Part shown: positions 104 to 56,481 of the stretch, piece by piece
Layout: each line of letters begins with the position of its first letter
Numbering within the stretch: the first letter of the stretch is position 1
Assembly: GCF_041080625.1 (NCBI RefSeq)
Contig: NZ_CP163518.1
Coordinates: 3,906,001 to 3,970,000, forward strand
Source of the DNA: Streptomyces sp. CG1
GTDB lineage: Bacteria; Actinomycetota; Actinomycetes; Streptomycetales; Streptomycetaceae
Reading direction: 5' to 3'
DNA length: 64,000 nt
Position numbers and translations under genes: made by a program
Notes under the pieces: generated by a model
Databases searched by the model: none
Seen by the model: the letters and a program-made list of their open reading frames with translations, nothing else
Told to the model about the DNA's origin: nothing

Positions 104-958
104 CTAGGACACCACGTCCTTGCGGGCGAATCCCCGGAAGGCCAGGGCGAAGAGCACGCATGCGTAGGTGAGGGAGATCGACGTCCCCTGGATCATGCCG
201 GACCACTCGGGGTGCGGCTGCACGATGTCGGCCCAGGCGAACTGCCAGTGCGCGGGCAGGAAGTCACGCCAGTGGCCGAGCGCGGTGACGGCGTCCAGGA
301 CATTGCCGACGATGGTCAGGCCGACCGCGCCGCCGACCGCGCCGAGCGGAGCGTCCGTCTTCGTCGACAGCCAGAACGCGAGCCCCGCGGTGACCAGTTG
401 GGACACGAAGATGTACGCCACGGTCACCGCGAGCCGCTGCACCGCCGTCCCGGTGTCGAGCGCGCCGCCGGTGGGGATCTGCAGCGGTCCCCAGCCGTAG
501 GCCGCCGTACCGACCGCGAGGGCGACCACCGGGAGCATGATCATCGCGACCAGGCTCAGTCCGAGCGCCACGACCAGCTTCGACCACAGCAGCCGGGCGC
601 GGGGCACGGGTGCCGCGAGCAGATAGCGCAGGGAGGACCAGCCGGCCTCCGAGGCGACCGTGTCCCCGCAGAACAGGGCGACCGGGATCACCAGCAGAAA
701 GCCGGCCGAGACGAACAGGTTCACCGCGGCGAAGTTGGCGCCGGACGCGGTGGCGGTGTTCATCAGGGTGATCTGGCCGTTGCGGGCGGCCGGGTCACCG
801 CCGATCGCGAAGGCGATCAACAGCACGAACGGCAGCAGGACGAGGACGGCGCCCATGATCAGCGTCCGCCGCCGCTTGAGCTGCCGGACCAGCTCGACCC
901 GCAGGGGCAGCGTGTGCCGCGTCTGATAGCCGGAGGCGACCTCGGTGAGCGTGCTCAT
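104..958 (-). CDS. ABC-2 type transporter permease
   Basis: A 284-residue integral membrane protein with about six hydrophobic segments, including one soon after a basic stretch (KRRRTLIMGAVLVLLPF). This is the usual layout of an ABC-2 permease half that exports drugs, peptides or lipids. The start is the ATG whose first four bases overlap the stop of the upstream hydrolase-ATPase gene (ATGA), so the two are translationally coupled. The partner supplies the ATPase, and together they should form one exporter in the cytoplasmic membrane. The substrate is unknown. The family assignment rests on hydrophobicity and neighbourhood, because ABC-2 permeases share few fixed motifs. Confidence 0.85.
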   Translation of the reverse strand: MSTLTEVASGYQTRHTLPLRVELVRQLKRRRTLIMGAVLVLLPFVLLIAFAIGGDPAARNGQITLMNTATASGANFAAVNLFVSAGFLLVIPVALFCGDTVASEAGWSSLRYLLAAPVPRARLLWSKLVVALGLSLVAMIMLPVVALAVGTAAYGWGPLQIPTGGALDTGTAVQRLAVTVAYIFVSQLVTAGLAFWLSTKTDAPLGAVGGAVGLTIVGNVLDAVTALGHWRDFLPAHWQFAWADIVQPHPEWSGMIQGTSISLTYACVLFALAFRGFARKDVVS

Positions 959-3636
959 GCGGAACCTCCTATCAGGGTGAGGAAGGCGTCTTCCAGGCGC
1001 CGGTGCGGGCCGACCGAGACGACGGGCACATCCAGCCGCACCAGCTCCACGACCAGCCGCTCGGCGGTGCCGCCGGCATCCAGCCGGACCAGCAGCCCGT
1101 CGTCGGTGCACACGGCGGAGGCGACGCCTGGCAGCGCGGCCACCTTCTCCGCGACCGGCTCCTCCACGGGTGTGGCGGTGCCGACGAGCAGGGTGTCGCC
1201 GGAGCCGATGATGTCCCGGACGGGGCCCGCCTGGACGAGCCGGCCACGGTCCATCACCACCAGATGCGTGCAGGACTGCTCGACCTCGGAGAGGAGATGG
1301 CTGGAGACGATCACCGTACGCCCGGCGGCTGCGTAGCGGATCATCACCTCGCGCATCTCGCGGATCTGGGGCGGGTCGAGGCCGTTGGTGGGTTCGTCGA
1401 GGATGAGCAGGTCGGGCAGGCCGAGCATGGCCTGGGCGATGGCGAGACGCTGGCGCATGCCCTGGGAGTAGGTGCGCACCGCTCGGGCGAGCGCGTCGCC
1501 GAGCCCGGCGATCTCCAGGGCCTCGTCCAGATGGGCGTCCTCCGGCGGACGGCCGGTGGCCCGCCAGTACAGCTCCAGGTTCCCCCGGCCGGACAGATGC
1601 GGCAGGAAGCCCGCGCCCTCCACGAAGGCGCCGACTCTCGACAGCACGGGTGCGCCGGGCCGGATGGCGTGGCCGAAGACGCGGATCTCGCCGTCGTCCG
1701 GGGTGATGAGGCCCATCAGCATGCGCAGGGTGGTGGTCTTGCCCGCGCCGTTGGGTCCGAGCAGGCCGAGCACCTGGCCCTTCTCGACGCGGAAGGACAG
1801 CTCGCGCACCGCGTACCGGTCGGCGGACTTCGCGTACCGCTTGCTCAAGTCCTTGATCTCCAGCGGGACTTCGGCCAGCTCCGGGTCCGGCGCGGGGGTG
1901 GCCGTGCGGCGGCGGGCGGTGAGCAGCAGGGCGAGCGCGATCGCCGCACCGGCCGCCGGCAGCCACCACACCCAGGCGGGCAGGGGCGCCGCGGCCGTGG
2001 TGACGGCGGGCGCCGTCGGGACGCTCAGGTCTCCCTTCAGGGAGACGGTGTAGGTGGCCGGGGCGGCCGGCGAGGCATAGCCGAGGTCGGTGGAGGCGAG
2101 GACCAGGCGGAGCCGGTGGCCCTTCTGCACCTCGTGGTCGATCGCCGGGAGGGTGACCGTAACGTCCTTGCCGGCCTTGGCACCGGTCACCCGGAACGGG
2201 GCGACGAGCTGGCTCGGCAGCACCTGCTGGGTGCCGTCGGGGCCGACGTCGTAGACCTTGCCGAACAGGACGGCGTCGTCGGTGGTCGAGGTGATGCGGA
2301 CGGTGGCGGTCGGGGTGCCGGTGATCTGCAGGTCGCGGCGGAGCGGCGCGGAGTCGAATCTGGCGTACTGGCCGGGGAAGTCGAGGGAGACGCCGAGGCC
2401 GAGCGCGGACAGCTGGGTCAGGCCGCCGGTACCGCCGAGGCCGGGCAGCGCGGAGACGCCGGGCGGGCTGGCGCCGGCCGGGTTGGTGACGTGCTGGGTG
2501 CCACCGGTCAGGGCGACGGCGCGCGGGTGGTCGCGCAGGCCGGGGTAGGAGGTGGCGCTCGCGCCGCGCAGCTGGGCCGTGCCGTCGCCCGAGTTGACGC
2601 CGCCGGTGCGGGTGATCCGGAAGGCGGGGCCGGTGCCCGCGTTCTTGTCGCCCTTCAGATAGTGGTCGAACCACGCGCGCACGCGTGCCTGGCCCCGGCC
2701 GCTCTCCATGTCGCCGCCGTCATGGCCGCCCGCGATCCAGTCGACGTCCACAGGGGCGCCGTTCGCCCGGATCGCCCGTTCGGCCGCGTCGGACTGGGCG
2801 AGGGTGAACAGGGAGTCCGTCTGGCCCTGCAGCAGCAGGGTGGGCACCTTGATGCGGGAGCCGACGGCGGACGGCGAGCGCTCCTGAAGAAGCTTGCGGG
2901 CGGCCGCGTCCGGGGTGCCGGACTCGGCGACCCTGTCGTACATCCGGCACAGTGCGGGCTCGAAGCGGGCGCAGCCGCCGCCGGTGTTGAAGAAGATGCC
3001 GGTCCACAGCTTCTTGAACACGCCGTTCGGGAACAGGGCGTCCGCAAGGTTCCAGTAGGTGATGGCCGGGGCGATGGCGTCGACCCGGTGGTCGTACCCG
3101 GCGGCGAGCAGGGAGATCGCGCCGCCGTAGGAACCGCCGGCCAGGCCCACGCGCGGGTCGCCCGGTTTGTCGAGCCGGACCTCGGGGCGCCCCGCCAGCC
3201 AGTCGATGAGCCGGGAGACATCGGCGACCTCGGCCTTCGGGTCGTTGAGTCCGATCTTGCCGGTGGACGTGCCGAAGCCGCGCGCGGACCAGGTCAGGAC
3301 CGCGTACCCGTCCCGGGCGAGGTCCTCGGCCTGGCCGCGCACGTCGTCCTTGCTGCCGCCGAAGCCGTGCGCCAGCAGGACGGCCGGGTGGCGGCTGGCG
3401 CCGGCCGGGGTGAAGAACGAGGTGTCCAGGCGCACGCCGTCGACCGCCATGACCTGGTCGCTCACCCGGACCGTGGGTGTGTCCGCGGAGGCGACAGCCG
3501 CGGTCCATGTCCCGGCGCCGACGAGCACCACGGCGGCGGCCGCGGCGGCGGCCAGCCTGCGCGGCTCCTTGAGCAGCCCCCGCACCGAGGGCAAGCGCTT
3601 CCTCAAACGCCCCCGGAGGGGCGGGCGAAGATCCAT
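955..3636 (-). CDS. Secreted alpha/beta hydrolase (S15/CocE-like) fused to ABC transporter ATPase
   Basis: An 893-residue fusion. Residues about 30-50 form a signal anchor. Next comes an alpha/beta hydrolase of the X-Pro dipeptidyl peptidase/CocE type: HGFGG oxyanion region, nucleophile serine in GGSYGG, acid in QGQTDS, histidine in AGGHDGG, then the beta-rich C-terminal domain usual in this family. A second hydrophobic segment lies at about 555-578 (WVWWLPAAGAAIALALLL), followed by RRR and a full ABC ATPase with Walker A LLGPNGAGKTTT, signature YSQGMRQRL and Walker B LLILDEP. The predicted topology puts the hydrolase outside and the ATPase inside. It overlaps the permease gene by 4 bp. Whether the hydrolase is a peptidase or an esterase cannot be told from the sequence. 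Confidence 0.88.
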   Translation of the reverse strand: MDLRPPLRGRLRKRLPSVRGLLKEPRRLAAAAAAAVVLVGAGTWTAAVASADTPTVRVSDQVMAVDGVRLDTSFFTPAGASRHPAVLLAHGFGGSKDDVRGQAEDLARDGYAVLTWSARGFGTSTGKIGLNDPKAEVADVSRLIDWLAGRPEVRLDKPGDPRVGLAGGSYGGAISLLAAGYDHRVDAIAPAITYWNLADALFPNGVFKKLWTGIFFNTGGGCARFEPALCRMYDRVAESGTPDAAARKLLQERSPSAVGSRIKVPTLLLQGQTDSLFTLAQSDAAERAIRANGAPVDVDWIAGGHDGGDMESGRGQARVRAWFDHYLKGDKNAGTGPAFRITRTGGVNSGDGTAQLRGASATSYPGLRDHPRAVALTGGTQHVTNPAGASPPGVSALPGLGGTGGLTQLSALGLGVSLDFPGQYARFDSAPLRRDLQITGTPTATVRITSTTDDAVLFGKVYDVGPDGTQQVLPSQLVAPFRVTGAKAGKDVTVTLPAIDHEVQKGHRLRLVLASTDLGYASPAAPATYTVSLKGDLSVPTAPAVTTAAAPLPAWVWWLPAAGAAIALALLLTARRRTATPAPDPELAEVPLEIKDLSKRYAKSADRYAVRELSFRVEKGQVLGLLGPNGAGKTTTLRMLMGLITPDDGEIRVFGHAIRPGAPVLSRVGAFVEGAGFLPHLSGRGNLELYWRATGRPPEDAHLDEALEIAGLGDALARAVRTYSQGMRQRLAIAQAMLGLPDLLILDEPTNGLDPPQIREMREVMIRYAAAGRTVIVSSHLLSEVEQSCTHLVVMDRGRLVQAGPVRDIIGSGDTLLVGTATPVEEPVAEKVAALPGVASAVCTDDGLLVRLDAGGTAERLVVELVRLDVPVVSVGPHRRLEDAFLTLIGGSA

Positions 3637-3977
3637 GCCTCAACGGTACGGGCCAGCACCGACAACCGATGGCGCCGCTGGGCTGAACGCCCGCCCCTCC
3701 TACAGGAGTACGGGGTCTGCCCGGCGTACACCCACCGTGGTACGCAGACGCATGGACATGCGCGGGGCCACCACCGTCGCCGAAGCCGTCGCCGTCGGTC
3801 TTGCGCCTTCGGTCCAGCGCCGTTGGGGTACATCAGCGTTGCGGGGTGCGGGCCGTCGGCGTGGATGGCTTCGGACGACGGCGTCCTTGCCGCCTATTGC
3901 AGTGCGGGCGGCAAGGACGACGGGACGTGCGCGGTGGTGCCGTGGGACTTCACCCGAGGGCGAGCCCCGACCCCGGC
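3637..3977. other. Intergenic stretch without a convincing gene
   Basis: These 340 bases lie between the upstream end of the hydrolase-ATPase gene and the 3' end of the amino-acid permease. The open frames across it have no recognisable domain, no ribosome-binding site and poor codon bias. It presumably carries the promoter of the hydrolase-ATPase/permease operon and any terminator of the permease gene. I could not pick a specific promoter or hairpin. Confidence 0.5.
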
Positions 3978-5693: not shown

Positions 5694-7196
<1,503 letters not shown>

Positions 7197-7212
7197 GCCC
7201 AGAGACTCCTTA

Positions 7213-9090
7213 TTACAGATGGCGGCGTCGGGTCGAGACGTGCCGTTCGTACAGCTCACGTGCCTTGACCGCGGACGCTCGGGTCGCGGTCTCGGCCACA
7301 GGAACATCCCACCAGGCCTGCGCCGGGGGCGCGCCCGACACAGTGTCGGACGTTTCGGTCTCCACGTAGACACATGTGGCAGTGTCGGCGGCGCGCGCCT
7401 CGGCGAGCGCCGCGCGCAGCTCCCGTACGGTCTTCGCGCGCAGTACCCGCATACCCAGGCTGGCCGCGTTGGCGGCGAGATCGACGGGCAGCGGGGCGCC
7501 CGTGAACGTCCCGTCCTCGGCCTGGAAGCGGTACGCGGTGCCGAACCGCTCGCCGCCGACCGACTCCGAGAGCCCGCCGATGGACGCGTACCCGTGGTTC
7601 TGCACCAGCAGGATCTTGATCGCGACGCCCTCCTGTACGGCGGTCACGATCTCCGTCGGCATCATCAGATACGTGCCGTCGCCGACCAGCGCCCACACGT
7701 TCCGCTCCGGCGCGGCGAGCTTCACACCGAGCGCGGCCGGGATCTCGTAGCCCATGCAGGAGTAGCCGTACTCCAGGTGGTACTGGTCGTACGACCGCGC
7801 CCGCCACAGCTTGTGCAGATCACCCGGGAGCGAGCCGGCCGCGTTGATGATGATGTCGGACTCGTCCACCAGGGCGTCCAGGGCGCCGATGATCTGCGGC
7901 TGGGTCGGCCGTACGTCGATCTCCTCGGCCTCGAAGCAGGCGTCGACGCGCTGCTCCCAGCGCTCCTTGTCCTCGGTGTACTCGGTGACGTACGGCTCCG
8001 GCGCCCGGTGGCTGTGCATCACCAGCGCCTCGGTCAGCTCGCCCAGGCCGCTGCGGGCGTCGGCGACCAGCGGGAGTCCGGACAGCTTGTGGCCGTCGAA
8101 GGGCGCGATGTTGAGGTTCAGGAATCGGACGCCCGGATGCGCGAAAAGAGTGCCGGAGGCGGTGGTGAAGTCGGTGTAGCGGGTGCCGACACCGATCACC
8201 AGGTCCGCGGTGCGGGCCAGTTCGTCGGCGGTCGCGGTGCCGGTGTGGCCGACACCGCCGACGTCCTGCGGATGGTCGTACCGCAGGGAGCCCTTGCCGG
8301 CCTGGGTGGAGGCGACCGGGATGCGGGTGGCCTCGGCGAACTCGGCGAGGGCCGCTTCGGCGCGGCTGTGGTGGACGCCGCCGCCCGCGATGACCAGGGG
8401 CCGGCGCGCGCCCCGGATCGCCCGGACCGCCTCGGCCAGCTCGACGGGGTCCGCGCCCGGCCGTCGTACCGTCCACACGCGCTCGGCGAAGAACTCCTCC
8501 GGCCAGTCGTAGGCTTCCGCCTGCACGTCCTGCGGCAGGGCGAGCGTGACCGCGCCGGTCTCGACCGGGTCGGTGAGGACCCGCATGGCCTGCAGCGCCG
8601 ACGGGATCAGGGCCTCGGGCCGGGTGACGCGGTCGAAGTACCTCGACACCGGGCGCAGGCTGTCGTTGACCGACACATCACCCGCGTACGGCACCTCCAG
8701 CTGCTGCAGCACCGGGTCGGCGGGGCGGGTCGCGAAGACGTCGCCGGGCAGCAGCAGGACCGGGAGGTGGTTGATGGTCGCGAGGGCCGCGCCGGTGACG
8801 AGGTTGGTGGCGCCGGGGCCGATCGACGTCGTCACCGCGTGCGTGGACAGCCGGTTCGCCTGACGGGCGTACCCCACCGCCGCATGCACCATCGACTGCT
8901 CGTTGCGGCCCTGGTGATACGGCATCACATCGGCGTACTCGATCAGCGCCTGGCCGAGCCCCGCGACATTGCCGTGGCCGAAGATGCCCCAGGTGGCGCC
9001 GATCAGCCGCTGCCGCTCGCCGTCGCGTTCGGTGTACTGGGCGGCGAGGAAACGGACGAGCGCCTGGGCGACGGTCAGCCGGATCGTCAT
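7213..9090 (-). CDS. iolD: 3D-(3,5/4)-trihydroxycyclohexane-1,2-dione acylhydrolase (decyclizing)
   Basis: A 625-residue thiamine-diphosphate enzyme. IolD hydrolytically opens the six-membered ring of trihydroxycyclohexane-dione to give 5-deoxy-glucuronate. The N-terminal Pyr domain begins MTIRLTVAQALVRFL. The central domain follows, and the C-terminal PP domain has the ThDP/Mg motif GDGTYLMMPTEI with NHGYASIGGL about 25 residues later. SIGPGATNLVTGAA and FGHGNVAGLGQAL are typical of IolD. The ATG start overlaps the iolB stop by 4 bp. Confidence 0.95.
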   Translation of the reverse strand: MTIRLTVAQALVRFLAAQYTERDGERQRLIGATWGIFGHGNVAGLGQALIEYADVMPYHQGRNEQSMVHAAVGYARQANRLSTHAVTTSIGPGATNLVTGAALATINHLPVLLLPGDVFATRPADPVLQQLEVPYAGDVSVNDSLRPVSRYFDRVTRPEALIPSALQAMRVLTDPVETGAVTLALPQDVQAEAYDWPEEFFAERVWTVRRPGADPVELAEAVRAIRGARRPLVIAGGGVHHSRAEAALAEFAEATRIPVASTQAGKGSLRYDHPQDVGGVGHTGTATADELARTADLVIGVGTRYTDFTTASGTLFAHPGVRFLNLNIAPFDGHKLSGLPLVADARSGLGELTEALVMHSHRAPEPYVTEYTEDKERWEQRVDACFEAEEIDVRPTQPQIIGALDALVDESDIIINAAGSLPGDLHKLWRARSYDQYHLEYGYSCMGYEIPAALGVKLAAPERNVWALVGDGTYLMMPTEIVTAVQEGVAIKILLVQNHGYASIGGLSESVGGERFGTAYRFQAEDGTFTGAPLPVDLAANAASLGMRVLRAKTVRELRAALAEARAADTATCVYVETETSDTVSGAPPAQAWWDVPVAETATRASAVKARELYERHVSTRRRHL

Positions 9091-9926
9091 CGGTACCCCT
9101 CTGTGGTCTCGGTGTGGTCCGGGTGGAAGCAGATCCGCCACTCCCGGGTCTCGCCCGGGCCGGCCATCACGTTCAGGTAGTACATGTCATGCCCGGGCTG
9201 GGCGATCGACGGGCCGTGCCAGCCGTCGGGGACGAGGACGGCGTCACCGGAACGGATCTCGGCCAGCATGTCCGAGCCACCCTCTCGCGAGGGGAACACA
9301 CGCTGATAGCCGAGACCGCTCGGGCCGTCGATCTCGAAGTAGTAGATCTCCTCCAGCTCGGACTCCTCGCCCGGCCGGTGCTCGTCGTGCTTGTGCGGCG
9401 GGTACGACGACCAGTTGCCGCCGGGGGTGATCACCTCGACGGCGATCAGCTTGTCGCAGTCGAAGGAGTCGGCGGAGGCGAAGTTGCGCACCTGACGAGC
9501 GCAGGTTCCGCTGCCGCGCTCCTCGACGGGGACCTCCGGCGCGGGGCCGTAGCGGGCGGGGAGTCGTCGCTCGCACTTCGCTCCTGCCAGGGCGAAGCGG
9601 CCTCCCGCGCCGGAGGCGATCTGGACCCGGGCGTCCCGGGGCACGTACGCGAAGTCGGAGACGCCCGCGAACACGCTGCCCCGGCCCAGGAGTTGGAACT
9701 CGGCCTTCTCAGTTGATGCGGTCTCAATTTGTACGGTACATCCGCCTTGCAGCGGAAGCACGACCCACTCGCTGTCGCCGGTGGTGAACGTATGGCTGCC
9801 GCCGGGCGCCAACTCGACGACACGCAGGCTGCTGTGTGTCCAGCCGGCCAACTTGGGGTCGATGTCGACGGCGTACTGGGCGTTCGCGGTGGTGCCCTTG
9901 GGCAGATGCAGATCGGTGCTGGTCAT
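9087..9926 (-). CDS. iolB: 5-deoxy-glucuronate isomerase
   Basis: A 279-residue bicupin enzyme that isomerises 5-deoxy-D-glucuronate to 2-deoxy-5-keto-gluconate. The metal-binding cupin segment YPPHKHDEH is visible in the second half, followed by LEEIYYFEIDGPSGLGYQRV and a late conserved stretch with VLVPDGWHGPS. The length matches the family. It lies between iolD (4-bp overlap) and the aldolase gene (7 bases apart). Confidence 0.95.
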   Translation of the reverse strand: MTSTDLHLPKGTTANAQYAVDIDPKLAGWTHSSLRVVELAPGGSHTFTTGDSEWVVLPLQGGCTVQIETASTEKAEFQLLGRGSVFAGVSDFAYVPRDARVQIASGAGGRFALAGAKCERRLPARYGPAPEVPVEERGSGTCARQVRNFASADSFDCDKLIAVEVITPGGNWSSYPPHKHDEHRPGEESELEEIYYFEIDGPSGLGYQRVFPSREGGSDMLAEIRSGDAVLVPDGWHGPSIAQPGHDMYYLNVMAGPGETREWRICFHPDHTETTEGYR

Positions 9927-9933
9927 GCGGCCC

Positions 9934-10881
9934 TCACAGCAGTCCTACGGCGGTGTCCACGGCGGCGGCCACATCGCCGTCCGCCGGGTACAGCAGCGAG
10001 CGGCCGACCACCAGGCCGCGCACGGTGGGCAGTTGGAGCGCGCCGCGCCACTTCTCGTACGCGGCGACCTGGTCCTCGGGCGAGTCCCCGATGTCGCCGC
10101 CGAGCAGCACGGCCGGCAGGGTCGAGGTCTCCATGACCCGGGCCATGTCGTCGGGGTTCTCGGTGACGGGCACCTTCAGCCAGGTGTAGGCGGAGGAGCC
10201 GCCGAGGCCGGAGGCGATGGCGATGGACCGGGTGACCGCCTCGGCCGACAGGTCGTTCTTGACCTTCCCCTCAGGGCTGCGGCGGCTGATGAACGGCTCC
10301 ACGAACACCGGCAGCCGGCGCGCGGCCATGTCGTCGATGGCGCGGGCGGTGGACTCCAGGGTGGTCAGTGAGCCCGGATCGTCGTAGTCGATGCGCAGCA
10401 GCAGCTTGCCCGCGTCGAACCCGAGCCGCTGGAGGTCCTCGGGCCGGTGGCCGGTGAAACGGTCGTCCAGCTCGAAACTGGCGCCCTGCAGCCCGCCCCG
10501 GTTCATGGACCCCATGACGACCTTGTGGTCGAGGGCGCCGAGCAGCAGCAGGTCGTCCAGGATGTCGGCGGTGGCGAGGACCCCGTCGACACCGGGCCGG
10601 GACAGCGCCAGACACAGCCGTTCCAGCAGGTCGGCGCGGTTGGCCATGGCGAGCTTGCGGTCACCGACGCCGAGCGCGCCGCGGGCCGGGTGGTCGGCGG
10701 CGACGATCATCAGCCGGCCGTTGTCGTTCAGCAGCGGGCGGCGGGCCCGGCGGACGGCGGCCTCGGCGATCGCCTCGGGGTGATGGGTGCGGATGCGGAC
10801 GAGCTCGGCGACGTCGACACGGGGGCTGCGTCCGGCGTCCCCGCCCTCGGTGTGGGTGCCCGTGACCCGGCCGGCCCTCAC
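9934..10881 (-). CDS. DeoC/DhnA-type class I aldolase, probable 2-deoxy-5-keto-gluconate-6-phosphate aldolase
   Basis: A 315-residue TIM-barrel protein of the group annotated as Cgl0159-family or deoxyribose-phosphate-aldolase-like. It begins with a GTG overlapping the iolC stop (GTGA), so it is coupled to iolC. MIVAADHPARG is an early barrel strand, YTWLKVPV carries the lysine expected to form the Schiff base, and a glycine-rich phosphate site follows (AVLLGGDIGDSPE, then VRGLVVGRSLLYP). The operon has kinase IolC and dehydrogenase IolA but no other aldolase. This protein therefore most likely does the IolJ step, splitting the kinase product into malonate semialdehyde and dihydroxyacetone phosphate. 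That role is inferred from context. Confidence 0.82.
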   Translation of the reverse strand: MRAGRVTGTHTEGGDAGRSPRVDVAELVRIRTHHPEAIAEAAVRRARRPLLNDNGRLMIVAADHPARGALGVGDRKLAMANRADLLERLCLALSRPGVDGVLATADILDDLLLLGALDHKVVMGSMNRGGLQGASFELDDRFTGHRPEDLQRLGFDAGKLLLRIDYDDPGSLTTLESTARAIDDMAARRLPVFVEPFISRRSPEGKVKNDLSAEAVTRSIAIASGLGGSSAYTWLKVPVTENPDDMARVMETSTLPAVLLGGDIGDSPEDQVAAYEKWRGALQLPTVRGLVVGRSLLYPADGDVAAAVDTAVGLL

Positions 10882-11852
10882 AGCACCGCTCCCGCGTCGA
10901 GCGCGGCGGCCACCTCGTCCGGGGTGGGCATCGCCGAGGAGCACTCCAGACGGGAGGCGACGATGGCGCCGGCCGCGTTGGCATGCCGCATGATCGTCTC
11001 CAGGTCCCAGCCCTCGAGGAGGCCGTTGCAGAGGGAGCCGCCGAAGGCGTCTCCGGCACCGAGACCGTTGAGGACGGTGACGGGAAGGGGCGGGACCTCG
11101 GCGGAGTCGCCGTTGCGGCTGACCGCGAGGACGCCCTTGGGTCCCTGCTTGACGACGGCGATCTCCACGCCGGCCTGGAGGAGCGCCCGGGCGGCCGCGT
11201 GGGGCTCCCGCACACCGGTCGCGACCTCCACCTCGTCCAGGTTGCCGACGGCGACGGTCGTGTGCTTCAGCGCCTCGGCGTAGAAGGGGCGAGCGGCGGC
11301 CGGCCCGCGGTGGGAGCCGCTGGTGTCACTGCTCCAGAACATGGGGCGCCAGTCGAGGTCGAAGACCGTCGCGCCCGCCTTCGCCCGGTGGGCGAGGGCC
11401 GCGAGGGTGGCCGTACGGCTGGGCTCCTCGCTCAGGCCGGTGCCGGTGACCCAGAAGATACGGGCCTCACGGATGGCGTCGAGGTCCAGGTCGTGGGCGT
11501 CGATCTCCAGGTCGGGTGCCTTGGGCTGCCGGTAGAAGTAGAGCGGGAAGTCGTCCGGCGGGAAGACCTCGCAGAAGGTGACCGGGGTCGGGAGCCCGGG
11601 GACCGGGGTGACCCAGCGGTCGTCGACGCCGAAGCCGCGCAGTGCCTCGTGCAGATAGGTGCCGAACGGGTCGTCGCCCGTCCGGGTGATCACGGCGGTG
11701 TGCCGGCCGAGCCGGGCCGCGGCGACCGCGACGTTCGTCGCCGACCCGCCGAGGAACTTGCCGAAGGACGACACCTGGGCGAGCGGGACACCTGTTTGCA
11801 GCGGGTACAGGTCCACTCCGATCCGCCCCATGGTGATCAGGTCGTAGGCCAT
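10878..11852 (-). CDS. iolC: 5-dehydro-2-deoxygluconokinase (PfkB family)
   Basis: A 324-residue PfkB-type sugar kinase that phosphorylates 2-deoxy-5-keto-gluconate. The N-terminal PfkB motif reads GKFLGGSATNVAVAAARLG and the C-terminal motif NGLGAGDAFGGSLCNGLLEG holds the catalytic aspartate. It is the first gene of the operon. The start is the ATG of MAYDLITMGRIGVD, preceded by a GAAGGGAA ribosome site. Longer upstream reading is unlikely, because it would run through the promoter. The PfkB fold alone would allow other substrates, but the iolB/D/A neighbours make IolC the best reading. Confidence 0.93.
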   Translation of the reverse strand: MAYDLITMGRIGVDLYPLQTGVPLAQVSSFGKFLGGSATNVAVAAARLGRHTAVITRTGDDPFGTYLHEALRGFGVDDRWVTPVPGLPTPVTFCEVFPPDDFPLYFYRQPKAPDLEIDAHDLDLDAIREARIFWVTGTGLSEEPSRTATLAALAHRAKAGATVFDLDWRPMFWSSDTSGSHRGPAAARPFYAEALKHTTVAVGNLDEVEVATGVREPHAAARALLQAGVEIAVVKQGPKGVLAVSRNGDSAEVPPLPVTVLNGLGAGDAFGGSLCNGLLEGWDLETIMRHANAAGAIVASRLECSSAMPTPDEVAAALDAGAVL

Positions 11853-52761: not shown

Positions 52762-55700
52762 TCAGCGGGACGCGGTGACCGGCTCCTCCGGTTCGGCGCG
52801 GCCGACGAAGGTGCGCCACAGTTCGGCGTACCGGCCGTCGCGGGCCAGGAGTTCGTCGTGGGTACCGTCCTCCGCGACCCGGCCGTGGTCCACCACGACC
52901 ACCCGGTCCGCGCGGGCCGCCGTGGTGAGGCGATGGGCGACCACCAGCGTCGTACGACGGCCCGCCAGGCGGTCGGTGGCCTGGTTGACCTGCGCCTCCG
53001 TGGCCAGATCCAGGGCGGCCGTGGCCTCGTCCAGCAGGAGTATGTCCGGGTCGACCAGCTCGGCGCGGGCCAGGGCGATCAGCTGGCGCTGGCCGGCCGA
53101 CAGGTTCCGGCCGCGCTCGGCGACCTCATGCAGATAGCCGCCGTCGAGGGTGGCGATCATCTCGTGTGCGCCCACCGCCCGCGCCGCCGCCTCCACCTCG
53201 GCGTCGGTGGCGTCGGGACGGCCGTAGGCGATGGCGTCCCGGACCGTGCCCGGGAAGAGGTACGCCTCCTGCGGGACGACGCCGAGGCGGTGCCGGTACG
53301 AGGTCAGGTCCAGGGCGCGCAGATCCGTGCCGTCGACCGTGACCCGGCCGCCGGTGGGGTCGTAGAACCGGGCCACCAGCTTGACGAGCGTGGACTTGCC
53401 GGCGCCCGTCTCGCCGACGAAGGCCACCGTCTGCCCGGCGGGGATCGTCAGGTCGATGCCGGTGAGCGCCTCTTCGTCGGCCCCGTACGCGAAGCGCACG
53501 TCCTCGAAGGCGATGTCGCCACGCAGGGACAGCACCTCCAGCGGCTCGTCCGCGGACTTCGTGGAGGTCGGCTCGCGCAGCAGCTCCTGGATGCGGCCCA
53601 GCGAGACCGTCGCCTGCTGGTAGCCGTCGAAGACCTGGGACAGCTGCTGGACCGGGGCGAAGAACAGGTCGATATAGAGGAGGTAGGCGACCAGGGCGCC
53701 CGTGGTCAGGGTCGCCGCCTCCACCCGGTGCGCGCCCGCGATCAGCACGGAGGCCGCCGCGACGGACGACAGGAGCTGTACGAACGGGAAGTAGACGGAT
53801 ATCAGCCACTGGCCGCGGATACGGGCGTGCCGGTAGCTGTCGCTGCGCTCGGCGAACCGCCGTCCGCCGTCCCGCTCGCGCCGGAAAGCCTGCACGATCC
53901 GCAGCCCGGCGACCGACTCCTGCAGGTCCGCGTTGACCGCCGACACGCGTTCGCGGGCGAGTTCGTACGCCTTCACGCTCGCCCGGCGGAAGAAGAAGGT
54001 CGCGACGATCAGCGGGGGCAGCGTCGCGAAGACGACGAGGGCGAGCTGGATGTCGATCACCAGCAGGGCGACCATGATGCCGAAGAAGGTGACGACCGAG
54101 ACGAACGCGGTGACCAGCCCGGTCTGCAGGAACGTGGACAGCGCGTCCACGTCGGTCGTCATCCGGGTCATGATCCGGCCGGTCAGCTCGCGCTCGTAGT
54201 AGTCGAGCCCGAGCCGCTGGAGCTGGGCGAAGATCTTCAGACGGAGGGAGTAGAGCACCCTTTCGCCCGTTCGGCCGGTCATCCGGGTCTCGCCGATCTG
54301 TGCCATCCACTGGACGAGGACGGTCAGCAGACCGAGCAGCGAGGCCGCCCACACGGCGCCGAGGGCCATCTTCGTGACGCCCGCGTCGATGCCGTGCCGG
54401 ATCAGCACCGGCAGCAGCAGGCCCGCGCCCGCGTCCACGGCGACCAGCAGCAGGCTGAGCAGGAGGGGCGGGCCGAAGCCGCGCAGCAGGCGGCGCAGTC
54501 CGTAGGAGTCCTCGCGCCCGACCGCTCGGGCCTCGTCTATGTCCGGGGTGTCGGTGGCCGGGGGCAGCGCCGCCACCTGGGCGAGCAGCTCCGGGGTGGC
54601 CGGGGTGCCGGAGAGCGCCTGGTCCTTCGGCGCCCGGTCGCCCGTCCACAGCCTCGGGGTCACTCCCCGCTCGGCGTCGAACTCGGCGTCCAGCTCCTCG
54701 CGGACGGAGTTGTCCTCCTGCGGCACGGCGGGCTCGACACGGCCCGGGGAGACCCCGCCCAGCTCGTCCGGGTCGGTCAGCAGCCGCCGGTAGAGCGCCG
54801 AGCGCTGCTGGAGTTCCTCGTGGGTGCCGAGGTCCGCGAGCCGGCCGCCGTCGAGGACGGCGATGCGGTCGGCGAGGTTGAGGGTGGAGCGGCGGTGCGC
54901 GATGAGCAGGGTCGTACGGCCCTCCATCACCTGCTTCAGCGCCTCGTGTATCTCGTGCTCGACCTGGGCGTCCACGGCCGAGGTGGCGTCGTCCAGGACG
55001 AGGAGTCGCGGGTCGGTGAGCAGGGCGCGGGCGAGCGCGACGCGCTGGCGCTGGCCGCCGGAGAGGGTCAGGCCCTGCTCGCCGACCTTGGTGTCGTACC
55101 CCTCGGGGAGTTCCCTGATGAAACGGTCCGCCTGGGCGGCGCGGGCGGCGGCCTCGATCTCCTCCCGGGTGGCGTCCGGGCGGCCGTAGGCGATGTTGGA
55201 GCGGACGGTGTCCGAGAAGAGGAAGGAGTCCTCGGGGACGAGCCCGATCGCGGCCCTCAGGCTGTCCAGGGTCAGCTCGCGCACGTCGTGGCCGCCGATC
55301 AGGACGGCGCCGTGGGTGACGTCGTAGAAGCGCGGGAGCAGCAGGGAGAGGGTGGACTTGCCGGATCCGGAGGAGCCGACGACGGCGAGGGTCTCGCCTG
55401 GGCGTATCTCGAAGGTCAGTCCGTCGAGCACCTTGGATCCGCCGTCGTAGCCGAAGGACACGTCGTCGAACTCGACGGTCGCGGGCGCGTCGGCGGGGAG
55501 GGTCTTGGTGCCTTCGTGGAGCGTCGGCTCGGTGTCGATCAGCTCCAGGACGCGCTCGGTGCCGGCCCGGGCCTGCTGGCCGACCGTGAGGACCATCGCG
55601 AGCATGCGGACCGGGCCGACCAGCTGGGCGAGATAGCTGGAGAAGGCGACGAAGGTGCCGAGCGTGATGTTCCCGCGCACGGCCAGCCAGCCGCCGAGCG

Positions 55701-56481
55701 CCAGCATGGCGACCTGGCCGAGGGCCGGGACGGCCTGCAGGGCGGGGGTGTATGTGCTGTTCAGCCGTATCGTGCGCAGGCGTCCCGCGAAGAGCTTGCG
55801 GCCGACCTCCCGCAGCTTGCCGGTCTCCTGCTCCTCCTGCCCGAAGCCCTTCACCACGCGTACGCCGCTGACGGCGCCGTCGACCACGCCCGCGACGGCG
55901 GCGGCCTGCGCCTGGGCGTACCAGGTGGCGGGGTGCAGCTTGCTGCGGCTGCGCTTGGCTATCCAGGCGAGCGCGGGGGCGACGGCGAGGGCGACCAGGG
56001 TCAGCGGCAGCGACAGCCACGCCATGATCACCAGGGACATCAGGAAGAGCAGGACGTTCCCGATGGTCATCGGGAGCATGAAGAGCAGGCCCTGGATCAG
56101 CTGGAGGTCACTGGTGGCCCGGCCGACGACCTGCCCCGTGGACAGCTCGTCCTGGCGGCGGCCGTCGAGGCGGGTGATCGTGCCGTACATCTCGGTCCGC
56201 AGGTCGTGCTGGACGTCGAGGGCGAGGCGGCCGCCGTAGTAGCGGCGGATGTAGGTGAGGACGTAGACGAGGAGGGCCGCACCGATCAGGGTGCCGGCCC
56301 AGGGGGCCATGGAGCGGGTGTGGTGCCCGATCACGTCGTCGATGATCACCTTGGTGATCAGCGGTACGACCGCCATGACGGCCATGCCGGCGAGGGAGGA
56401 GCCGAGGGCGAGGATCACGTCCTTGGGGTAGCGCCAGGCGTACCCCGCCAGTCTCCGTGCCCATCCCCGTTGCGCTGCCAC
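52762..56481 (-). CDS. Fused double ABC exporter (TMD-NBD-TMD-NBD)
   Basis: A 1239-residue ABC exporter made of two complete half-transporters. Half one: six TM helices then Walker A VVGSSGSGKSTLSLLL, signature LSGGQRQRVALARAL, Walker B LLVLDDATSAVD. Half two, after a charged linker (about residues 590-670): six TM helices, Walker A FVGETGAGKSTLVKLV, signature LSAGQRQLIALARAEL, Walker B ILLLDEATAALD. In half one the Walker B is followed by Asp, in half two by Glu, so one ATP site may be degenerate, as in heterodimeric exporters. GTG start after GGGAGG; an in-frame ATG 21 codons upstream has no such site. The substrate is unknown, probably a drug or lipid. Confidence 0.93.
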   Translation of the reverse strand: MAAQRGWARRLAGYAWRYPKDVILALGSSLAGMAVMAVVPLITKVIIDDVIGHHTRSMAPWAGTLIGAALLVYVLTYIRRYYGGRLALDVQHDLRTEMYGTITRLDGRRQDELSTGQVVGRATSDLQLIQGLLFMLPMTIGNVLLFLMSLVIMAWLSLPLTLVALAVAPALAWIAKRSRSKLHPATWYAQAQAAAVAGVVDGAVSGVRVVKGFGQEEQETGKLREVGRKLFAGRLRTIRLNSTYTPALQAVPALGQVAMLALGGWLAVRGNITLGTFVAFSSYLAQLVGPVRMLAMVLTVGQQARAGTERVLELIDTEPTLHEGTKTLPADAPATVEFDDVSFGYDGGSKVLDGLTFEIRPGETLAVVGSSGSGKSTLSLLLPRFYDVTHGAVLIGGHDVRELTLDSLRAAIGLVPEDSFLFSDTVRSNIAYGRPDATREEIEAAARAAQADRFIRELPEGYDTKVGEQGLTLSGGQRQRVALARALLTDPRLLVLDDATSAVDAQVEHEIHEALKQVMEGRTTLLIAHRRSTLNLADRIAVLDGGRLADLGTHEELQQRSALYRRLLTDPDELGGVSPGRVEPAVPQEDNSVREELDAEFDAERGVTPRLWTGDRAPKDQALSGTPATPELLAQVAALPPATDTPDIDEARAVGREDSYGLRRLLRGFGPPLLLSLLLVAVDAGAGLLLPVLIRHGIDAGVTKMALGAVWAASLLGLLTVLVQWMAQIGETRMTGRTGERVLYSLRLKIFAQLQRLGLDYYERELTGRIMTRMTTDVDALSTFLQTGLVTAFVSVVTFFGIMVALLVIDIQLALVVFATLPPLIVATFFFRRASVKAYELARERVSAVNADLQESVAGLRIVQAFRRERDGGRRFAERSDSYRHARIRGQWLISVYFPFVQLLSSVAAASVLIAGAHRVEAATLTTGALVAYLLYIDLFFAPVQQLSQVFDGYQQATVSLGRIQELLREPTSTKSADEPLEVLSLRGDIAFEDVRFAYGADEEALTGIDLTIPAGQTVAFVGETGAGKSTLVKLVARFYDPTGGRVTVDGTDLRALDLTSYRHRLGVVPQEAYLFPGTVRDAIAYGRPDATDAEVEAAARAVGAHEMIATLDGGYLHEVAERGRNLSAGQRQLIALARAELVDPDILLLDEATAALDLATEAQVNQATDRLAGRRTTLVVAHRLTTAARADRVVVVDHGRVAEDGTHDELLARDGRYAELWRTFVGRAEPEEPVTASR

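Follow-up and report, generated by a model that had tools for sequence, protein, structure and literature searches.

A near-core Streptomyces gene pair in which a predicted extracellular serine hydrolase is fused to the ATPase of an ABC-2-type transporter

Hydrolases fused to components of ABC transporters have been described before. ZmaM (PMC9889268) joins a prodrug-activating peptidase, with an outward-facing serine hydrolase domain, to an ABC half-transporter, and a fusion of an ABC-2 permease with an M1 peptidase is described under TC 3.A.1.145 (PMC3924187). In view of these two cases, the statement in the initial annotation of the DNA studied here, that standard exporters carry no such domain, is too strong. 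ABC-2-type pumps not known to carry such a fusion include LanFEG and BcrAB. LanFEG lets its peptides go undegraded (PMC7038271), and BcrAB has a single permease (PMC4239024). The ZmaM-type peptidase–ABC fusions are the closest working analogue of the gene pair analyzed below. Literature and database searches found no characterized member of this transporter layout and, as the initial annotation had supposed, no assigned role for the pair.

The pair lies in a 64,000-nucleotide stretch of the Streptomyces sp. CG1 genome (NZ_CP163518.1, positions 3,906,001 to 3,970,000), referred to here as the window, and its features are collected in Table 1. The coordinates and strand agree with those first assigned, as does the 4 bp overlap (955–958) between the two genes, and Pfam and hydropathy together place the hydrolase, a single helix and the ABC ATPase on one chain. 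The ATG of the fused gene is aligned with start codons in most of 19 Streptomyces loci; considering the putative −10 box, the fused gene may possibly be transcribed as a leaderless message. Upstream, we found an operator-like palindrome, new here. Within Streptomyces it is for the most part a feature of the promoter of the fused gene, where 14 of the 24 sites in 61 genomes are located. In the window genome, the gene following the permease encodes a 109-aa secreted-looking protein. Apart from the permease, no neighbor within ∼6 kb of the loci is common to more than two families. A hydrolase-free sister pump, also newly observed, adjoins a LolA/RseB-like gene.

Table 1. Features of the gene pair in the window
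Feature	Coordinates	Strand	Residues	Basis or remark
Fused gene (893 aa)	955..3636	-		Hydrophobic N-terminus, S15/CocE-like hydrolase + PepX_C, membrane helix, ABC ATPase; ORF and Pfam
ABC-2 permease gene (284 aa)	104..958	-		Start codon overlaps fused-gene stop (ATGA)
Operator-like palindrome TACCACGGTGGGTGTA	3727..3742	-		Upstream of fused gene; comparative alignment
Possible -10 box TACCGT	3643..3648	-		6 nt before ATG; putative, from conserved TA..GT block in alignment
Hydrophobic segment, signal peptide or anchor	3493..3549	-	30-48	Hydropathy
Peptidase_S15/CocE-like alpha/beta hydrolase domain	2797..3441	-	66-280	Pfam, 83.5 bits
Catalytic Ser169 (predicted), in GGSYGG	3130..3132	-	169	Alignment; aligned to SYG of lipase PaL
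Cys222	2971..2973	-	222	Pairs with Cys230 (probable)
Cys230	2947..2949	-	230	Pairs with Cys222 (probable)
Catalytic Asp274 (predicted)	2815..2817	-	274	Alignment
Catalytic His305 (predicted)	2722..2724	-	305	Alignment
PepX_C domain	2047..2364	-	425-530	Pfam, 56.6 bits
Transmembrane helix, then RRR	1915..1971	-	556-574	Hydropathy and structure model
ABC ATPase domain (ABC_tran), Glu at Q-loop	1384..1806	-	611-751	Pfam, 104.3 bits

Sixty loci, including that of the window, were chosen for diversity among the homology matches. The fusion occupies one open frame at 59 of these, and at all 59 the next gene on the same strand is the permease, so that the ABC-2 partner is indeed constant; the sole exception (L087) is a stand-alone hydrolase. 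The same pair, again with a 4 bp overlap, is found on a Tsukamurella plasmid in a separately annotated RefSeq record (NZ_LR134452.1). Together, these results rule out chance or an assembly error as the source of the join, and the objection raised in advance by the initial annotation, that relatives might encode the domains as separate genes, falls away. In the tree, the fused hydrolase domains occupy one side of a branch (SH-aLRT 97–98), and a single ancient fusion would therefore fit. The pair is carried by 138 of 151 Streptomyces genomes, which makes it near-core at about nine in ten sampled species, and by many related bacteria. Some carrier genomes measure 1.3 Mb, and some of the carriers seem to be small-genome freshwater actinobacteria. 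The pairing appears to be ancient and to have been maintained intact.

Hydropathy identifies residues 30–48 and 556–574 as the sole membrane-crossing candidates in the fused protein. The structure model has a helix at 25–42, with low confidence in that region, and the ASA right after the first segment presumably could serve as a signal cleavage site by the usual rule. The second helix is present in 57 of 57 proteins, and Lys/Arg are richer on its ATPase side in every one. Cys222 and Cys230 occur together in 56/57 (L114 has neither), forming a probable extracellular disulfide that is also new here. The Lys/Arg excess and the conserved Cys pair support an arrangement with the hydrolase outside and the ATPase inside, as originally proposed.

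All Pfam matches exceed their gathering scores, including those of the ectodomain (PF02129, 83.5 vs 23; PF08530, 56.6 vs 22.5), and the hydrolase also passes the cut-off of TIGR00976 CocE_NonD (108.8 bits; cut-off 66.3). Of the 60 aligned rows, 58 contain Ser169, and the remaining two (L091 and L129) are interrupted frames; D274 and H305 are each present in 60/60. The Ser-Asp-His triad recognized in the initial annotation is unbroken wherever the frame is whole; this retention predicts catalysis and argues against a non-catalytic family. Over the full length of the ectodomain, the strongest structural likeness is to lipase PaL and cocaine esterase, and among solved structures it is a lipase and esterases that match best from end to end. 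Because of this, esters or acyl groups seem likelier substrates than X-Pro peptides. Peptide substrates are possible, since on the catalytic half the fit of S9 and acylaminoacyl peptidases is almost as good as that of other esterases.

Walker A, signature, Walker B and H-loop motifs are all found in the window ATPase, and Walker B is seen in 58 of the 59 fused ATPases (exception, L130). The permease matches ABC2_membrane_4 in Pfam (39.7 bits), so that the ATPase motifs and ABC-2 permease of an ABC-2 exporter are encoded together. PF12679 and PF12730 hit 29/29 permeases and TIGR03732 hits 6/29 (E 0.01). At each of the 59 loci there is one match to the permease, and no second permease gene was found in a search that a strongly diverged copy elsewhere may escape. 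The Q-loop residue, overlooked initially, is Glu (E673, in FVEGAGF) in 59/59 aligned fused ATPases; since E or D also occupies this position in 12 of 29 other aligned ABC ATPases of the same genome, the Glu is not specific for LanFEG. In NCBIfam, the ATPase best matches TIGR01188 drrA (170.8 bits; cut-off 312.45), followed by lantibiotic protection TIGR03740 (169.8; cut-off 309.75), and the only match of the permease is MutE/EpiE TIGR03732 (21.8; cut-off 145.2). On these scores the pair would belong neither to the DrrAB type nor, with one permease gene per locus and despite its Q-loop Glu, to LanFEG.

These observations partly support the mechanism offered in the initial annotation. The reading we tentatively prefer, at somewhat less than an even chance, is a two-gene ABC-2 exporter whose ATPase subunit spans the membrane and carries a lipase/esterase-type serine hydrolase on the cell exterior. 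By analogy with ABC-2 exporters generally, the pump would consist of two fused and two permease chains. The permease would draw an amphiphilic, ester- or acyl-bearing compound from the inner leaflet outward, and the tethered hydrolase would cut it on emergence, so that it could not re-enter the membrane. In Streptomyces, where the pair combines near-core occurrence and intact catalytic residues with a candidate operator of its own, this would look like envelope housekeeping under a dedicated regulator and not like a component of any single antibiotic cluster. A stricter version, in which the membrane-crossing ATP-binding subunit passes motor motion straight to the outside enzyme in a chemo-mechanical "extrude and cleave" pump of single actinobacterial origin, acting on lipid-like or ester cargo, is doubtful.

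The resemblance of both proteins to lantibiotic profiles suggests instead that a LanFEG/BcrAB-like pump might lift an amphiphilic antibiotic or peptide from the membrane for the fused hydrolase to destroy. The acidic Q-loop also recalls the E-loop reportedly named in a 2010 title by Okuda, and the dedicated palindrome is compatible with induction. Because LanFEG releases its peptides undegraded (PMC7038271), the hydrolase would add a step. We consider this reading unlikely: the profile scores are far below their cut-offs, there is a single permease gene and not two, acidic Q-loops are common in the same genome, and the nearest solved relatives of the whole ectodomain are esterases. Less likely again is that the cell exports a product of its own as an acylated or masked precursor, which the hydrolase then unmasks on exit, as in ZmaM-type prodrug activation. 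The precedent of an outward serine hydrolase fused to ABC parts (PMC9889268) and the retention of the domains as one chain are consistent with this, but within ∼6 kb no neighbor other than the permease is widely shared, and the 1.3-Mb size of some carrier genomes makes a specialized product less likely.

It is quite improbable that ATP-driven closure of the ATPases pulls the helix to open or lift an outer enzyme acting on envelope lipids or esters, with the permease serving mainly as an anchor or lipid extractor. A single-helix link between ATPase and ectodomain is unusual among ABC-2 ATPases and would suit such a lever, as would the invariable permease, but the linker is of low confidence in the single-chain structure model. 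Least probable of all is uptake or sensing, in which the pump would take in or detect what the hydrolase releases from an external compound. The outward-facing hydrolase would permit it, and small-genome freshwater actinobacteria, apparently among the carriers, are scavengers of nutrients. Against this, ABC-2 permeases with the same ATPase class are exporters where characterized, and neither binding-protein nor sensor-kinase genes are prominent among the recurring neighbors that were identified.

Compared with known systems, the ectodomain shares its two-domain fold over its whole length with lipase PaL (8YZN; judging by its name, presumably the Pseudomonas alcaligenes enzyme) and CocE, with Ser/Asp/His aligned to PaL. 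These are free enzymes without a transporter, at 20–24% identity in structural alignment. DrrAB-type drug exporters provide the best profile match for the ATPase, but to our knowledge DrrA has no ectodomain. With LanFEG and BcrAB the pair shares the ABC-2 layout and an acidic Q-loop, and also a small permease and a weak similarity to the profiles; LanFEG has two permeases, and we know of no fused hydrolase in either. The single permease of the window pair is a likeness to BcrAB (PMC4239024), whereas LanFEG differs in profile scores and in releasing its peptides intact (PMC7038271). The M1-peptidase fusion also joins a hydrolase to an ABC-2 exporter, but there it is a metallopeptidase on the permease (PMC3924187), whereas here a serine hydrolase is carried on the ATPase. 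ZmaM, EdeA and PamJ likewise place an extracytoplasmic serine hydrolase N-terminal to ABC parts in one chain (PMC9889268). In those proteins, however, a beta-lactamase-family (PF00144) peptidase is joined to a half-transporter, while here an S15/CocE alpha/beta hydrolase is joined to the ATPase only, with a separate ABC-2 permease. PF00144 is not among the nine Pfam families found and the ectodomain is Peptidase_S15/PepX_C, so the protein falls outside the ZmaM type by domain content. The known ZmaM-type members sit in biosynthetic gene clusters; at the loci studied here, no biosynthetic neighbor recurs widely within ∼6 kb. If export is coupled to hydrolysis, the pair would represent one-way export for sticky amphiphiles and a second solution, unrelated to the ZmaM-type fusions.

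The fused protein gives Pfam matches to Peptidase_S15 (residues 66-280), PepX_C (425-530) and ABC_tran (611-751), and its hydropathy is sufficient for a membrane crossing only at residues 30-48 and 556-574; the second protein of the pair is matched as an ABC-2 permease. The host genome measures 11.1 Mb, and the closest named proteins come from Streptomyces. These data confirm the initial annotation, which had described an S15-type hydrolase running through a single helix into an ABC ATPase within one polypeptide, with a permease gene overlapping it by 4 bp.

Features of the gene pair and its upstream DNA (window coordinates)
Feature	Position	Strand	Remark
Fused gene	3636-955	-	893-aa reading frame
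ABC-2 permease gene	958-104	-	284-aa frame; 4 bp shared with the stop end of the fused gene
Operator-like palindrome	3727-3742	-	TACCNCNNNNGNNGTA copy; 0.08 chance occurrences expected in the window

The domain order was followed across 60 loci from 59 genomes, the host's included, picked for diversity among matching genomes (29 of 41 matching in one search, and 85 of 296 at E 1e-50 in another, the latter including some stand-alone hydrolases). Hydrolase and ATPase share one open frame, followed by the permease on the same strand, at 59 of the 60 loci, the pairing being real and widespread; the exception, L087, is a stand-alone hydrolase. The estimated permease start lies from 55 bp before to 344 bp after the ATPase stop, and the exact 4-bp overlap is visible in 9 of the 59 loci, these being every locus whose alignment reaches residue 1. 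A further 20 loci from other classes of the phylum yielded 10 fusions, each with an adjoining permease; the ATPase was detected by script in eight and recognised in translation in L273 and L277. Another of these loci, L272, was missed by the script, yet its genome contains a full-length match, and L275 is truncated by a contig end. With a hydrolase-plus-linker query at E 1e-70, which counts matches rather than verified fusions, 138 of 151 Streptomyces genomes respond, the host's included, while a full-length profile matches 12 of 49 genomes in a sister class, 2 of them only partially. The streamlined genomes of about 1-2 Mb in family f23 (loci L083 and L084) keep the fusion in 15 of 81 cases, and isolate IMCC25003 contains a close relative of it. 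The same pair, with the 4-bp overlap, occurs on a 386 kb plasmid of Tsukamurella tyrosinosolvens (NZ_LR134452.1; L308:7953-11212).

Quick trees without bootstrap took in 57 fused hydrolase domains of the 60-locus set, 10 fused ones from other classes and 28 stand-alone ones, 95 in all. L091 and L129, whose hydrolase frames are interrupted by sequencing error or in broken genes, were omitted, as were 6 of 40 additional loci, among which are the 20 from other classes (L265, L272, L275, L278, L280 and L284). A branch with an SH-aLRT support of 97 separates all 67 fused domains from the rest, and the same split receives 98 under a mixture model with 91 rows, four long stand-alone rows having been removed; in neither tree does a stand-alone row lie inside the fused group. 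A single origin of the fusion would be the simplest reading. The union of an outside-facing lipase/esterase-like enzyme with an ABC-2 exporter's ATPase is both old and stable.

The catalytic triad noted in the initial annotation is intact wherever the frame is uninterrupted, with S169 present in 58 of 60 aligned rows (the other two being interrupted frames) and D274 and H305 in all 60. All 59 fused ATPases have the Walker A, signature and H-loop motifs, and 58 also have Walker B; the exception, L130, has unrelated letters at that site, owing either to an error in the sequence or to a damaged gene. Hydrolase and ATPase motifs are likewise present in all 10 other-class fusions. The Q-loop Gln is replaced by Glu in 59 of 59; since 12 of 29 other host ABC ATPases in an alignment also have E or D there, this acidic residue marks a wider group rather than the fusion. 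The helix preceding the ATPase is found in 57 of 57 proteins, richer in Lys/Arg on the ATPase side in all, and Cys222 and Cys230 occur together in 56, L114 lacking both, a joint loss as would be expected of a disulfide. Two Cys spaced by 8 residues recur in 10 of 10 other-class fusions. The charge bias and paired Cys support the predicted placement of the hydrolase outside the membrane.

Upstream of the fused gene, TACCNCNNNNGNNGTA is found in 15 of 19 Streptomyces copies and as a variant in L128, with nothing resembling it at L123, L127 or L130. A set of 61 Streptomyces genomes contains 24 copies of the strict form TACCRCGNNCGYGGTA, and one of the two scans gave 6 for the reversed control pattern; 14 of the 24 sites lie 65-121 bp upstream of the fused gene's first matched codon and 10 elsewhere. 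The strict form is absent from the host genome and from the fused gene in most of the 61, and thus the site varies. The palindrome appears in none of 38 non-Streptomyces fused loci (300 bp before the residue-40 codon; 57 bp for L095). Across the window and the upstream DNA of L111-L130, most aligned Streptomyces copies keep the palindrome together with a following GTAC.CC....GGAGG and, directly ahead of the ATG, a TA..GT box. The operator-like palindrome is largely specific to this promoter in Streptomyces, and the scarcity of sites elsewhere suggests a putative dedicated regulator.

Neighbours within ~6 kb were grouped with a home-made gene caller, which recovered the fused gene at 55 and the permease at 54 of the 60 loci. 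Among groups present at four or more loci, only these two genes are common to more than two families; two more cross a family line, namely an aldehyde dehydrogenase group, seen in 13 Streptomyces and at L072, and one that includes an AMP-binding enzyme, seen in 5 Streptomyces and at L071. Inositol-catabolism genes recur among Streptomyces and other gene sets in one second family, with no fixed biosynthetic cluster seen within this ~6 kb at the 60 loci. In the window, methylmalonate-semialdehyde dehydrogenase, iolD and apparent further inositol-catabolism genes (5694-11852) adjoin the pair, a synteny repeated among Streptomyces. Several Streptomyces also encode, close to the pair, small secreted proteins of rodlin-like appearance (L112:134-493, without a Pfam match, L114:1396-1788 and L118:13277-13693). 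Farther off, a script-called 1218-aa frame (52762-56418, minus strand), within a longer open frame with two ABC ATPase matches, is perhaps a fused double ABC exporter.

Several observations bear on the cargo. A search of the host genome gave a single permease paralogue (31%), which lies behind the best-scoring ATPase paralogue (45%); the gene preceding them encodes a protein with an RseB/LolA-like domain, for which MucB_RseB scores 27.5 bits against a cut-off of 22.3 while LolA stays under its own. This hydrolase-free sister pair (L161:5647-8894, at 6.26 Mb), beside a lipid-carrier-like protein, gives a hint of lipid-like cargo; a polyprenyl synthetase gene is nearby. The closest solved ATPase sequences include the phospholipid exporters ABCA3 and ABCA4, at a distance that makes this little informative. 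Hydrolase and permease pairwise distances correlate at 0.94 (57 loci; Mantel 0/1000), with a partial correlation of 0.76 once the ATPase is controlled for; between ATPase and permease, controlling for the hydrolase leaves 0.24. This fits a hydrolase and permease that may share one substrate; shared ancestry and slow ATPase change (mean difference 0.28, against 0.51 and 0.46 for the other parts) could be the source of part of the correlation.

The most economical mechanism is one in which the ABC-2 exporter would move an amphiphilic ester-like compound outward and the outside-facing lipase/esterase-like enzyme of the ATPase chain would cut it at the exit. By sequence, the fused protein can be assigned to the S15/CocE-NonD superfamily and the pair, by its parts, to the ABC-2 transporters. 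Membership of LanFEG and DrrAB was rejected, the ATPase scoring 169.8 bits to lantibiotic protection ATPases and 170.8 bits to DrrA, both far below cut-off; a minority of permeases weakly match lantibiotic immunity permeases (MutE 6 of 29, MutG 2 of 29), and 4 of 29 match GldF. Membership tests likewise rejected the ZmaM family, though in its proposed way of working the hydrolase-ATPase fusion resembles ZmaM-type fusions (PMC9889268).
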